A stretch of 32,705 nucleotides of DNA from Bacillota bacterium (GTDB lineage Bacteria; Bacillota; SHA-98; Ch115), in contig DUSO01000131.1 in the NCBI GenBank assembly GCA_012842565.1, positions 1 through 32,705 of the forward strand, given 5' to 3'. Both the position numbers and the translations under genes were made by a program. Positions 16,531 to 23,504 of the stretch are shown in pieces (the first letter of the stretch is position 1; every line of letters begins with the position of its first letter). The notes beneath the pieces are model-generated. The model had not been told where the DNA came from. It searched no databases and saw only the letters and a list, made by a program, of their open reading frames with translations.

Positions 16531-17493
16531 TTACCGCCCCCCGCCAGAAAGCCTCTCGTTGATAAAACGCCCTATGTGATCGCAGGCCTCTCTTGCTGAC
16601 CTATACTGATCTAAGTCAAACCAGACAATGCCAGGTTCATGCTTAAACCATGTCATCTGTCTCTTCGCATAACGCTGGTTATTGCGTTTCATCAGTCGAA
16701 TCGACTCTTCCAGGGTACACCTGCCATAAAAGAAATGCACCAGCTCCTTATAACAGAGGGCCTGCCCGGAGGTCAGCCGCCGCTCATAGCCCATTTCTAA
16801 AAGGCGCCGGGTCTCCTCCACCAGTCCGGCTGCAATTTGAGCATCCACCCTGGCCCGTACTCTCTCATACAGGCTGGGTCTCGGCCGGCAGAGGCCGATC
16901 AGCACCAGGTCGTAGATGCTGCGATCTCCGGGGTGTTCCCCCTGCAGCTCCGAAATAGGCCTCCCGGTGTGGTGATAAACCTCGAGGGCGCGTACCAGGC
17001 GCCGGGTGTCATTGGGATGCAGCCTCCTCGCGGCAACCGGGTCTACCTCCTTGAGGCGTGCGTGGAGGTAGCCCGGGCCATGCTCCGCCTCCATTCTCTC
17101 AAGGGCCTCCCGGTATTCGCGATCCGCCCCTGGCATGGGGAATAGATAATCCCTCACCGTAGCCCTGAGGTAAAGCCCCGTTCCGCCAACCAGCATCGGG
17201 AGCTTTCCCCTTTCGTGGATTCCCGCTATTGCTTGCCTTGCAAGCCTCTGGTACTCTGCGACATTGAAATCCTCCGACGGGTCCACAATGCTGATCAAAT
17301 GGTGGGGGACTCTTGCCATATCCTCGGGGGATGGTTTCGCTGTCCCTATGTCCATGTAACGATAGACCTGCATGGAATCACATGAGACTATCTCGGCGTC
17401 CAGCCTTTCCGCCAGTATAAGGGATAATTCTGTCTTCCCGACAGCCGTAGGCCCGACGATAGCGGCAACAGGGATATCGGGTTGCCCGGTCAT
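16531..17493 (-). CDS. miaA: tRNA dimethylallyltransferase MiaA
   Basis: A 320-residue tRNA dimethylallyltransferase (EC 2.5.1.75) that adds the isopentenyl group to A37 of UNN-decoding tRNAs, the substrate for MiaB. The P-loop is 'AIVGPTAVGKTELSLILAER'; 'SCDSMQVYRYMDIGTAKPS' and 'LVGGTGLYLRA' are family signatures; 'TSGQALCYKELV' has Cys where Gly is more usual; 'RNNQRYAKRQMTWFKHEP' is near the C-terminus. The ATG overlaps the mutL stop by 4 bp (translational coupling). It shares an operon with miaB, the next enzyme of the ms2i6A pathway. Secure. Confidence 0.97.
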   Translation of the reverse strand: MTGQPDIPVAAIVGPTAVGKTELSLILAERLDAEIVSCDSMQVYRYMDIGTAKPSPEDMARVPHHLISIVDPSEDFNVAEYQRLARQAIAGIHERGKLPMLVGGTGLYLRATVRDYLFPMPGADREYREALERMEAEHGPGYLHARLKEVDPVAARRLHPNDTRRLVRALEVYHHTGRPISELQGEHPGDRSIYDLVLIGLCRPRPSLYERVRARVDAQIAAGLVEETRRLLEMGYERRLTSGQALCYKELVHFFYGRCTLEESIRLMKRNNQRYAKRQMTWFKHEPGIVWFDLDQYRSAREACDHIGRFINERLSGGGR

Positions 17494-19427
17494 TCGCTCC
17501 CGCGCCCCTTTCCCGCCGGGCGCCTGAACCGCCTCTCGAGCTCGTCAAGGGGCAAAGAGATCATGGTGGGCCTCCCGTGGGGGCACAATAGGGGGTCACG
17601 CGTGCTCAGGAGATCGGACACCAGCCTCTTCATCTCTTCATGGTGCATCCGGTCCCCCGCTTTCACCGCCAACCTGCAGGCTATGGTCGCTGCAAGCCCG
17701 TGAAGGTCGAGTCGCACGTTGCCGGGGCCATCCTCTCCAGCGGCATGCCCTATCGCCTCCCTCAGCATGCCCTCTATTTCAGCACCCGGTCGCTCTGCCA
17801 GCAGGGCGGGGACGGAACGTACCAGGAAGGCATTCTGGCCAAAGGGTTCCAACTCGAAGCCTATCCTCTCGAACAAATATCTCTTACCCTCCACCTCGTG
17901 GGCAAGACGCGGCTCGAGCTCGAGGATCACAGGCACCAGGAGCATCTGGCATGACGCTGAATCGTGGTCGAACGAATCCACAATGCGCTCATAGAGGACT
18001 CTCTCATGAGCGGCATGCTGGTCGACGATATATAGGTTCCCGGGTCCTTGGACCAGGATATAGGTATCTGAATACTGGCCGATGACGGACACCTGGTGCC
18101 CGGCGGGCACGGGGTGTCCGGGCGTGGCATCAGGGCCGGGGGACATTATGCCCGCAGGCGCCGCAATATCAATTGACATGGGGGCAGGGGAAGGTGTACC
18201 GGCACCCGGCACCCTACCACTGGAGCCCTCAAAACCCGAGTCAAAAGACTCGGCCAGGAGCATGCCGAGGGCGGTGGTGCTATCCCGGGCGATCTCGCGC
18301 CTCCGGACTGCCAAATGTTCCTTGATTGCCCCATAATCCCGGGCTGTCGCGCGGTCCTGCGCTGCTCTATCGGTAAGGTCAGCCGCGGTGCGTTCAGGAG
18401 GGCAGGTGCCCCCCTCAACCTCCAGGGTGACCATCGTGGGCTTCTGGCGCAGGGCCTGCTTTGCTGCCTCAAAGGTTATTCTGTACAGGTCACCCTCCCT
18501 GGCAAAACGCACTTCGCGCTTGGCCGGGTGGACATTGACGTCCACGGAAGCGGGGTCAACGGATATCCAGACAAAGGCTACAGGGTGCCGGCCCCTCGGC
18601 ACGGCTCCGCCGAATGCCTTCTCAATGGCTGCGATAATGGTCCTGCTTTGAATGGGCCTGCCATTTACGAAAAACTTCAGCCCCTCGCGCCCTGACCGGG
18701 CGAGGTCAGGCTTGCCAATAAGGGCGAATATGCTTATGTCCGCAAGGCCGAGGGATACCGGGACGAGCCCCTTCGCGAGTGAATTGCCATATATCCCTGT
18801 GACGGCCCCGAGGTAATCCCCGGTGCCATCTGTAGACAACACAAGCCTGTCCTCCCGGTAGAGCAGGAACGAAATCTCGGGATGGGAAATGGCAAGAGAG
18901 CTCACTACATCGTAGACGTGGCCGATCTCCGTACTCACACTCTTGAGGTACTTCCGGCGGGCGGGTGTATTGAAGAATAGGTCCCGCACCACCACAGAAG
19001 TGCCTTCGGGCCCGCCGGATTCACCTACAAAGGTGCGCTCGCCGCCCTTTAGCTGGATACGGGTCGCCGACCCACCCCCCTTGGGCCTTGAAACCATCTA
19101 CACCTGCGACACTGCGGCAATACTTGGCAGTGCCTCACCCCTGAACCCGAGGGTCTCTATATGAAAGAGGTCTTGCGGGTCGCGTAGCTTACTGGTGGCA
19201 TGCCGTTCGAATGCCAGAAGCACGTCATCCTTCCCCATCCCGCAGCCGTCGTCAGTCACCTGGATGAATTCTGACGGGTCACCCCCAAGCTTGACCGTGA
19301 TCCTCTCCGCGCCAGCATCAATGGAATTCTCGATCAGCTCCTTGACCACGGAGGCAGGCCTCTCGATAACCTCGCCGGCAGCTATTCTATTGACCAACTC
19401 CTCACCAAGGATCATGATCCGGCTCAT
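17490..19427 (-). pseudogene. mutL: mutL interrupted by an in-frame TAG
   Basis: The two collinear parts together encode a full MutL mismatch-repair endonuclease (about 645 codons). The first 109 codons hold the GHKL ATPase motifs ('[20 protein letters not shown]', '[10 protein letters not shown]', '[14 protein letters not shown]'). A TAG at 19098-19100 then stops translation, and the same frame resumes with 'MVSRPKGGGSATRI', 'DLFFNTPARRKYL', and the C-terminal endonuclease motif 'DQHAAHERVLYE' and 'CPHGRP'. TAG may derive from GAG by one change. The ATG right after the stop could allow reinitiation, giving a split protein. It overlaps mutS and miaA by 4 bp each. Recent inactivation, sequencing error, or reinitiation are all possible. 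Confidence 0.85.
19098..19100 (-). other. Premature TAG codon in mutL
   Basis: Codons around it read CAG GTG TAG ATG GTT TCA in frame with the rest of mutL. Other genes in the window (speD, murJ and both tiny membrane-protein genes) end in TAG, so the codon is a normal stop here and not obviously reassigned. Confidence 0.9.
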
Positions 19428-22102
19428 ACCCTCGCGTCACCCACCCTGCCCGGGATCACGCGAATTCCCAGAGTCCCTTCCTTGAGCCTTTCCTGAAGTT
19501 CCTTGAGTCTTGCCAGGGCTTCGAGCGGCGTCATGTTCAAGAGATCCATCTCCAGAAGGTCTCTGATTACCGCATCCTCAGCCTTTTCAAACAAGGAAAG
19601 TTGTGCGGCATGTTTGCAGGTAGATGGCACCTGGCCCCGGGCATGCCTTTTCTGTGGAGGAGACTGCCCCTCTCCCTCTTTCTTTAGCTCAGCGAGAATC
19701 TCGCTCGCGCGTTTGATCACCTCGGGCGGCAGCCCTGCCAGCCGGGCCACGTCAATCCCATAGCTCTCCGTCGAACTTCCCGGCTCTATCTTATGGAGGA
19801 ACACGATATCCTGACCTTCCTGGCGCGCAGTCATACAATAGTTCTTGACGCGCGGGAGGGCTTTTTCAAGGCTTGTAAGTTGGTGGAAGTGTGTTGCAAA
19901 AAGGGTCTTGGCCCCCACTTTTCGCCTGTCATGAATGTACTCCACTGTAGCCCTCGCTATACTGAGCCCGTCCAGCGTCCCGGTGCCGCGGCCAACCTCG
20001 TCCAGCAGGATAAGGGTCCGCCTGTCTGCATGGATCAATATCCGCGCCAGTTCAAGCATCTCAACCATAAAGGTGGAAAGGCCGAGGGCGAGGTCATCGG
20101 TCGCTCCGATTCGCGTCATGATGCGGCTTACGATGCCGATCCTGGCAGACTCGGCGGGCACGAAGCTCCCGATCTGGGCCATGATGACTATGAGCGCGCA
20201 TGACCGCATGTATGTGGATTTCCCTGCCATATTCGGGCCCGTTATTATGGCTATCTGGTTCCGGGACCCGTCAAGCATGATGTCATTGGGCACATACACG
20301 GACCCTTTCAGGGATTGCTCTACAACCGGGTGTCTCGCCGCCTTTACCAGGATCTCGTCTCCACTGGTGACCTCCGGCCTTACGTAATTATTCAGCCGGG
20401 CCACCTCCGCCAGAGCAGAAGCCACGTCTACCTCGGCCACAAGTGCGGCGGCCTTCTGCAGGCGAGATGCTTCCCCTGCCACACGGTCTCTCAGCCGACA
20501 GAAAAGCTCGTATTCCAGCTGCAATTGCTCCTCTTCGGCCCTTGTGATCAGGACTTCCTTTTCCTTGAGCTCCGGGGTTATAAACCTCTCTCCGGATGCC
20601 AGGGTCTGTTTTCGTATGTAATCGGGAGGCACGAGCGGGAGGTTGGGCCGGGTAACCTCGATGTAATAACCGAAAACCTGGTTATATCCAACCTTCAGGG
20701 ACTTGATCCCCGTCCTCTCCCTCTCCCTGGACTCGAGCTCCACAAGCCATGCCCTGCCGGATGACCTTGCCTCTCGCAGTCTATCCAGTGTCTCATCAAA
20801 GCCCGGCCGGATGATCCCGCCCTCCTTCGGACTCGTGGGGGGGTCATCGACCAGGGTTTGCCTTATCTCTCTCGCAATATCCTCGAGGCAGTCAATTGCC
20901 GACCCATCGCCCCGGACCGGCCAGCCGGCCAGCACCTGCCATAATTCAGGCAAGCGCTCAAGGGACAGGCCCAGGGTATAGATTTCTCTCGGATTCGCAA
21001 GCTTCATCGCCGCCCGTGCGGTAAGCCGCTCAATGTCGTAGATGCCTTTCAGTAGGTCCCGCACCGAATTACGCAGTACCTGGTCGTCAAAGAACCTCTC
21101 TACCAGGTCCTGGCGTCTCCGTATCTCTGCGAGATCCAGGAGGGGCTCCTCCAGCCACCTCCGGAGCAGTCGCCCGCCCATTCCGGTAATCGTACGGTCT
21201 AACACCCCAAGCAGGCTGCCCTTTTTCGTCCCGTCCCGCAGCGAGGCGAAAATCTCGAGGTTACGCTGTGTCGTCTCATCAATGGCCATGAAACCATCAA
21301 TGGTATATGTCCTCAGACGACCTACATGAGCCAGGAGGGATCCCTGTGTCCCGGAAAGGTAGGAGATACATGCTCCGGCCGCTCCAATTGCAAGGGGCAG
21401 GCGTTCGCATCCGAAGGCCTCAAGTGAGGCTACTCTGAAGTGCCTCAAGAGATACTCGCGTGCCCTCTCAGGCCGGAAGGCCTCAGCATCATACAGTGAG
21501 ATATTAATCCCGGGCACGGAGCTCAGTCTGCTTCGCACGGGGTCCCCGGGTCCCACATTGTCCGGGACTAGACACTCCCTCGGCCCCCTGCGGACGATCT
21601 CGGTGACGGCGCGTTCATGGGAAAAGTCGCCGCGAACTTCGGTCGCCAGGAATTCGCCTGTCGAGAGGTCGCATAAGGCAATCCCGACATCCCTTCCGTC
21701 GGAAAAGACAGAAGCCAGGTAGTTATTGGACTTCGCCTCGAGGAGCGCAGGCTCCATAACGGTCCCCGGCGTGATTATCCTGACTACTTCCCTCCTGACG
21801 ACCCCCTTAGCGAGCTTGGGGTCCTCCATTTGCTCACAGATGGCCACCTTATATCCCTTTGTGACAAGCCGGCCGATGTAGCTATCGGCAGCATGGTACG
21901 GCACCCCGCACATCGGCATCCGTTTGCCTTTCCCCGCCTCACGGGATGTAAGGGTGATCTCCAGTTCTCTTGCAGCAATCTCAGCATCTTCATTAAACAG
22001 CTCGTAAAAGTCGCCAAGCCGGAAGAAGACCAGCTTGTCCCTGTGCTGAGCCTTTATGGACTCATACTGTCTTAGCATCGGGGTCATCAGGCTGTCGGTC
22101 AT
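19424..22102 (-). CDS. mutS: DNA mismatch repair protein MutS
   Basis: An 892-residue MutS that recognises mismatches as a dimer and recruits MutL. Mismatch-reading Phe32-Tyr-Glu34 lies in '[10 protein letters not shown]'. Walker A '[14 protein letters not shown]' is at about 621-629, Walker B and signature '[18 protein letters not shown]' near 695-712, and the C-terminal dimerisation helices contain '[20 protein letters not shown]'. The signature has Gly where MutS normally has Ser (GRGTS); that Ser contacts ATP across the dimer. GAGGTGG lies 4 nt before the ATG, which overlaps the miaB stop by 4 bp. Its end overlaps mutL by 4 bp. Identification secure. Confidence 0.97.
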
Positions 22103-23421
22103 TTTACCACCTCAGCCCCAAGGGTCCAAGTCTTCGCTGACGTGATCTTTACCGTGACGAGCTTCCCCTCGAGCGCGGCCCTGTCGCCCGGGAAGTGTAC
22201 AAGCTTATTGGTCCGCGTCCGCCCTTCGAGCATGTCGGGGTTTCCCTCGCTTGGACCTTCGACCAGCACCTCCTGGGATGTCCCGACCAGCGCCTGGTTC
22301 TTACGGAGACTTATGGCATTCTGCACCTCTATTAGCCGCTGGATGCGTTCATGTTTCACATCTTCCGGCACCTGGTCAGGCATCTCTGCCGCCCTTGTCC
22401 CGCGGCGCGGCGAGTAGATGAATGTAAATGCCGAGTCAAACTCGATCTCCTCCACGGCCTCGAGTGTCCTTTGGAAGTCTTCATCGGTCTCTCCGGGAAA
22501 GCCCACTATCAGGTCTGTAGTGATGCTCGCCCCGGGGATCCTGGCCCGGATATCGTGGACAAGCCCAAGATACCGCGCCAGGGTATACCCGCGCCCCATC
22601 CGCTTTAGTATCTTATCAGAGCCTGCTTGCAGGGGCAGGTGGAAGTTCTCGCAGACCTTCTCCGCGGTGGCAACGGTCTCAATGAGTTTTTCCGAAAAGT
22701 CCCTCGGGTGACTCGTGGTGTAGCGGATGCGCTCTATCCCCGGCACATCGTTTAGCATCAACAATAGGTCGGAAAAGTCCACCCCGGGCTCGAGGCCCTT
22801 GCCATAGGCGTTTACATTCTGGCCGAGAAGGGTTACCTCTTTGTACCCCTCACGCCCGAGTTGTGTCACTTCTCGCACTATGTCCTCGGGCTTCCTCGAG
22901 CGCTCGCGCCCCCTTACATATGGCACGATACAGTAGGCGCAGAAGTTATTGCACCCGTACATGATGGTAACCCATGCCTTGAGCTTACCCTGCCGTCTCA
23001 CCGGGAGATCCTCGAGGATCTCCTCCTCCCGCTCCCATATCTCGAATGCGCGCCTCCCTGCCCTCGCCTCTTTCAGAAGCTCCGGCAGGCGGTGGATGTT
23101 GTGTGTACCGAAGACGATGTCCACATGGGGTAGCTTCTCCCTGATCCTCTCCGCCTCGCCGGGCTGTTGCGGCATGCACCCGCATATGCCTATTATGAGG
23201 TCCGGGTTTTTCCTCTTGAGGGCCTTCAAGTCTCCAACCTGGCCATACGTCTTTCTTTCAGGGTTTTCGCGCACACAGCAGGTATTATATATGATCACAT
23301 CTGCCGACTTGATGTCGTCAGTCCGGGTATAGCCCTCCCTTTCGAGCAGGCCGGCGATAACCTCCGAGTCATGCTCGTTCATCTGGCAGCCAAGCGTGAC
23401 TATGTGATATCTTCCCGGAAT
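22099..23421 (-). CDS. miaB: tRNA-2-methylthio-N6-dimethylallyladenosine synthase MiaB
   Basis: A radical-SAM methylthiotransferase (EC 2.8.4.3) that thiomethylates i6A37 of tRNA, acting after MiaA. Fe-S ligands are Cys12, Cys48 and Cys82 for the auxiliary cluster, and Cys157, Cys161, Cys164 in 'CNNFCAYC' for radical SAM; a C-terminal TRAM domain follows. The first ATG (23382) would begin at 'MNEHDSEV' and lose Cys12. The frame upstream encodes 'PGRYHIVTLGCQ', the conserved MiaB start, and reaches a stop without ATG, GTG or TTG. ATT at 23419-23421 has GAGGGGAGG exactly 9 nt upstream, so I propose an AUU start (440 residues). It overlaps mutS by 4 bp. Confidence 0.9.
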   Translation of the reverse strand: MPGRYHIVTLGCQMNEHDSEVIAGLLEREGYTRTDDIKSADVIIYNTCCVRENPERKTYGQVGDLKALKRKNPDLIIGICGCMPQQPGEAERIREKLPHVDIVFGTHNIHRLPELLKEARAGRRAFEIWEREEEILEDLPVRRQGKLKAWVTIMYGCNNFCAYCIVPYVRGRERSRKPEDIVREVTQLGREGYKEVTLLGQNVNAYGKGLEPGVDFSDLLLMLNDVPGIERIRYTTSHPRDFSEKLIETVATAEKVCENFHLPLQAGSDKILKRMGRGYTLARYLGLVHDIRARIPGASITTDLIVGFPGETDEDFQRTLEAVEEIEFDSAFTFIYSPRRGTRAAEMPDQVPEDVKHERIQRLIEVQNAISLRKNQALVGTSQEVLVEGPSEGNPDMLEGRTRTNKLVHFPGDRAALEGKLVTVKITSAKTWTLGAEVVK

Positions 23422-23430
23422 GGCGAGAAT

Positions 23431-23439
23431 CCTCCCCTC
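23431..23439 (-). promoter_or_regulatory. Shine-Dalgarno that fixes the ATT start of miaB
   Basis: GAGGGGAGG on the minus strand lies 9 nt before ATT (23419-23421). It is nearly 50 nt upstream of the first ATG and so cannot serve that codon. Confidence 0.65.
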
Positions 23440-23504
23440 AGCCTTGAGTCCGGTACCAAGCTGGCATAATCAGTCTATATGAATCCAGCCTTGATCCAGT
23501 TTTA

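Follow-up and report, generated by a model that had tools for sequence, protein, structure and literature searches.

The window analysed here, 32,705 nt of contig DUSO01000131.1 from a Bacillota bacterium assembly (GCA_012842565.1), carries a miaB-mutS-mutL-miaA operon on its minus strand, with miaB as the first gene. Read from an ATT codon at 23419-23421, the miaB coding region spans 22099-23421 (440 codons plus stop), and its product contains the UPF0004, Radical_SAM and TRAM domains (Pfam). It is followed by mutS (19424-22102), mutL (17490-19427) and miaA (16531-17493), each overlapping the stop of the preceding gene by 4 nt (ATGA at every junction), and mutS is itself preceded by purine-rich sequence. 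The mutL frame is interrupted by an in-frame TAG at codon 110 (19098-19100, minus strand), with an ATG directly after it, which splits the gene into 109 and 535 codons.

Codon-by-codon reading showed that the miaB frame is closed upstream by a TGA (23470-23472, minus strand), after which it runs TTA TGC CAG CTT GGT ACC GGA CTC AAG GCT GAG GGG AGG ATT CTC GCC to the ATT at 23419-23421 and continues CCG GGA AGA TAT CAC ATA GTC ACG CTT GGC TGC CAG to the first in-frame ATG (23380-23382, minus strand). Neither ATG, GTG, TTG nor CTG occurs in this frame between the TGA and that ATG, confirming the initial annotation, which had reported that the frame reaches a stop without meeting any of the first three. 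Its accompanying claim, that conserved MiaB sequence including the first cluster cysteine extends upstream of the first ATG, also held: the conserved sequence (YHIVTLGCQMNEHDSE) begins at 23409, and the residues YHIVTLGCQ, encoded in frame ahead of the ATG, are MiaB sequence. The ATT-started protein scored 569 bits against TIGR01574 (cut-off 355), placing it in the MiaB equivalog family with an alignment across profile positions 1-437, while the ATG-started protein scored 549 bits and aligned only from profile position 11.

The cysteine at stake is residue 12 of the ATT-started protein (codon 23386-23388, minus strand) and lies in the motif GCQMN; it is conserved in all 110 MiaB homologues compared, and in 109/109 relatives a canonical start (ATG, GTG or TTG) lies upstream of it. 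In this genome it enters the product only if translation begins upstream of 23388. Since MiaB enzymes hold an auxiliary [4Fe-4S] cluster with three N-terminal cysteines (PMC5372745), a protein truncated to the ATG at 23380-23382 is probably inactive. A functional MiaB initiated at 23382, one of the outcomes that the initial annotation had named as refuting an ATT start, is disfavoured, as this ATG both lacks a Shine-Dalgarno (SD) sequence and drops the invariant cysteine.

Direct reading of the region upstream of the ATT identified the SD sequence GAGGGGAGG (23431-23439, minus strand), whose GGAGG ends 9 nt before the ATT, in agreement with the spacing given in the initial annotation. In 70 genes of this genome that have both orthologue support and a GGAGG, spacing peaks at 8-9 nt, and a GGAGG ending 7-11 nt upstream is expected by chance at ~1% of all positions (genome sample). 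No near-cognate codon of the frame other than the ATT at 23419-23421 is suitably spaced from this SD: the ATT at 23430 abuts it (spacing 0 nt), and the ATA at 23403 has no SD and falls inside conserved sequence. The locus combines an SD at the proper distance with a conserved frame that has no canonical start, two of the features expected of an AUU start. Because conserved coding sequence precedes the first ATG, the SD spacing is modal and no alternative codon is available, the position of the start, as read from sequence, is well supported. SD placement fixes this position, but by this criterion alone a true ATT and a misread ATG would look alike.

A nine-codon ORF (MPAWYRTQG, 23467-23438, minus strand) lies just upstream of miaB, with its TGA beside the SD; its ATG at 23467 has no good SD, and the ORF has no homology to the upstream region of the sister genus. 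No Rfam family reached its gathering score in the leader, the predicted leader fold was no stronger than those of shuffled sequences (z -0.67), and a promoter scan returned no consensus promoter.

To place the ATT in a lineage context, we compared 0.73 Mb of this genome with 1.2 Mb of its nearest relative (another genus of the same family), a survey of orthologues that covers ~29% of the genome. Among 185 orthologues, miaB was the only gene clearly lacking a start that the sister genus has; the other solid start-less match was prfB, which is accounted for by its programmed frameshift, and two further matches came from weak alignments, located at ends that were spurious or short. When 212 conserved frames were compared from stop to stop, miaB and prfB came up again together with one further genuine case, a HAD-family phosphatase gene. 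One further apparently start-less gene (L242, near 6065) was dismissed on account of an apparent GTG behind GGGAGGG. The sister-genus miaB, the closest relative at 79% identity, starts with ATG a few codons upstream and has a different leader. One scan of genome contigs returned relatives of at most 64% identity and viral contigs contained no same-species sequence; the ATT start is known from one genome and one assembly. In the comparison of orthologues at this codon, which the initial annotation had proposed as a check, all 109 relatives place a canonical start before the first cysteine, and the sister genus has its ATG a few codons upstream.

Non-canonical starts do occur elsewhere in this lineage. 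The infC gene starts with ATC in this genome and throughout the class, with ATT in an outgroup; in this genome the ATC lies 9 nt after GGAGG within an extended SD (GGGAGGTGA). The HAD-family phosphatase gene (L243, 8913-8185, minus strand; counterpart L273 in G001) has a CTG start behind an SD in two genera, with ATG or GTG at or beside the same position in all other relatives, and its CTG is a better-supported non-canonical start than the miaB ATT. Together, the infC and phosphatase starts indicate that the lineage does use non-canonical initiation codons.

The TAG in mutL is a warning sign for the miaB ATT, since its presence in the same operon indicates that this contig carries single-base lesions, be they real or artefacts. 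At the corresponding site fifteen relatives have Glu (GAG or GAA) and the sister genus has Thr (ACA); given the latter, we dropped the reading of the TAG as a certain G to T change, the class that would convert ATG to ATT. The TAG is either a real nonsense mutation, which would make the strain a mutator, or a consensus error. Across ~196 orthologues, the only convincing in-frame stops or frameshifts of this genome were those in mutL and a transposase, the latter an in-frame TAG (L235, near 1564, plus strand) where the relative has Gln. By eye, a DapA-like remnant (L237, near 3465, plus strand) also contains a stop and an internal deletion. A codon-bias scan for in-frame stops in the genome sample was abandoned, as the bias was too weak and the signals fell mostly at gene boundaries.

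We consider it reasonably probable, though well short of assured, that miaB is translated from the AUU at 23419-23421 to give a 440-residue MiaB. The initial annotation had proposed this start, and its position stands, given the modal SD and the lack of an alternative codon; that the organism truly has ATT rather than ATG there is likely, and falls short of proof because the sister genus starts with ATG. In favour of an AUU start, the core genes of this assembly carry few interrupting lesions. Counting against it are the ATG start of the closest relative, an SD that is not extended, unlike those of infC and the S. aureus cases discussed below, the mutL TAG within this operon and the reliance on a single assembly.

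Several other readings of the locus need to be weighed against this one. A one-base consensus error or minor allele, with the organism itself having ATG at 23419-23421, is unlikely but carries real weight: the ATT is a single base (G to T) from ATG at the best-spaced site, the unexpected mutL TAG lies 4.3 kb downstream of the miaB start on the same contig, and the assembly is in 199 contigs. If the mutL stop is taken as a consensus error, however, the error rate that follows (1.6e-4 per base) would produce just ~0.07 start-codon losses in 185 genes, making error a minority but not negligible explanation, more so if the contig is locally poor. With mutL and the transposase set aside, the ~196 orthologues contain no convincing in-frame stop or frameshift, and the genuine non-canonical starts elsewhere in the lineage also speak against an artefact. 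Initiation at another site is improbable. It could involve the ATG at 23382, which is the first canonical codon, the ATT at 23430, the ATA at 23403, or the short ORF beginning at 23467 by way of an indel or a +1 shift. The TGA of this ORF immediately precedes the SD, and translation shifting by +1 at that point would continue in the frame of miaB; yet each of these sites suffers from the defects of SD, spacing, conservation or homology described above for that site.

A somewhat more credible possibility, though still a tentative one, is that both lesions are real, recent and strain-level, with ATG changed to ATT in miaB and a sense codon to TAG in mutL, leaving a hypomorphic miaB and a broken mutL. 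The operon would then be of a natural mutator type and not an example of evolved regulation, though the AUU would still be used, making this mechanistically a sub-case of the AUU start we favour. Both lesions fall in the same operon and affect usually dispensable genes, and the remainder of miaB and mutL is intact, as recent changes would leave them. ATT and ATA start mutations arise readily in Listeria rsbW, and the AUA start of S. aureus citZ is restricted to one strain lineage. From one genome, however, a recent mutation is indistinguishable from a fixed ATT or an error. Should the two changes be genuine and recent, they would point to damage of the operon, not to its regulation.

Under the favoured reading, that miaB is translated from AUU 23419-23421, the codon would be selected by the strong SD GAGGGGAGG 9 nt upstream and read as fMet by the ordinary initiator tRNA. 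The AUU probably lowers miaB output, with initiation at perhaps a tenth of that from AUG by analogy with the AUU and AUA starts of S. aureus. Given the ATGA overlap at each junction, lowered miaB translation could reduce mutS and the rest of the operon by coupling, and the 4-nt overlaps may hand part of this reduction to mutS, mutL and miaA. IF3 discriminates against AUU, as established in E. coli. It is conceivable, though we regard it as very doubtful, that an evolved AUU heads the translationally coupled miaB-mutS-mutL-miaA genes, so that both tRNA methylthiolation and mismatch repair would respond to IF3 or to the stringency of initiation.

The closest parallel is infC, which like miaB has a near-cognate AUN start (AUU, AUC or AUA) and a strong SD at ~9 nt. 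As infC encodes IF3, its start autoregulates, whereas the miaB product is not IF3; moreover, the infC start is conserved across the class, while the miaB ATT occurs in one genome and its SD is not extended. The statement in the initial annotation that AUU starts are known almost only from infC goes too far: AUU is also the initiation codon of E. coli pcnB and S. aureus cvfC1, and non-canonical starts are fixed in six conserved genes of Listeria. The pcnB start (Binns and Masters 2002, cited in PMC13009471) is, as cited, one in which AUU limits how much is made of an enzyme that acts on RNA, as it may for miaB, though the pcnB start was shown by experiment according to the same citation and that of miaB is known here from sequence. 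In S. aureus, non-canonical starts include cvfC1 (AUU) and ccpN and citZ (AUA), and AUU and AUA starts yield ~10% of AUG output (PMC13009471). Like miaB, cvfC1 is first in its operon, and the citZ start is specific to a strain lineage (PMC13009471); the S. aureus cases differ from miaB in having extended SDs and evidence from ribosome profiling and reporters (PMC13009471). In Listeria, ATT performed worse than ATG and ATA, yet protein was still made (PMC13068326). Changing the rsbW ATG to ATT or ATA, a single-base loss, lowers but does not abolish translation, akin to our reading of miaB, although the rsbW variants are selected laboratory mutants with a known phenotype (PMC13068326), unlike miaB. 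A targeted search of titles and abstracts found no report of an AUU start in miaB. On the sequence evidence from this one assembly, miaB is probably a further case of the already known AUU starts outside infC.

Genuine AUU starts are rare outside infC, and annotating with ATG, GTG and TTG alone would set the miaB start 13 codons late, losing a cysteine of the catalytic cluster. If real, the miaB AUU would be a further instance in which a weak start determines how much of a tRNA-modifying enzyme is made. Comparison of start positions with a sister genus can reveal starts of this kind in uncultured genomes, as the infC ATC shared across the class and the phosphatase CTG conserved in the family indicate.
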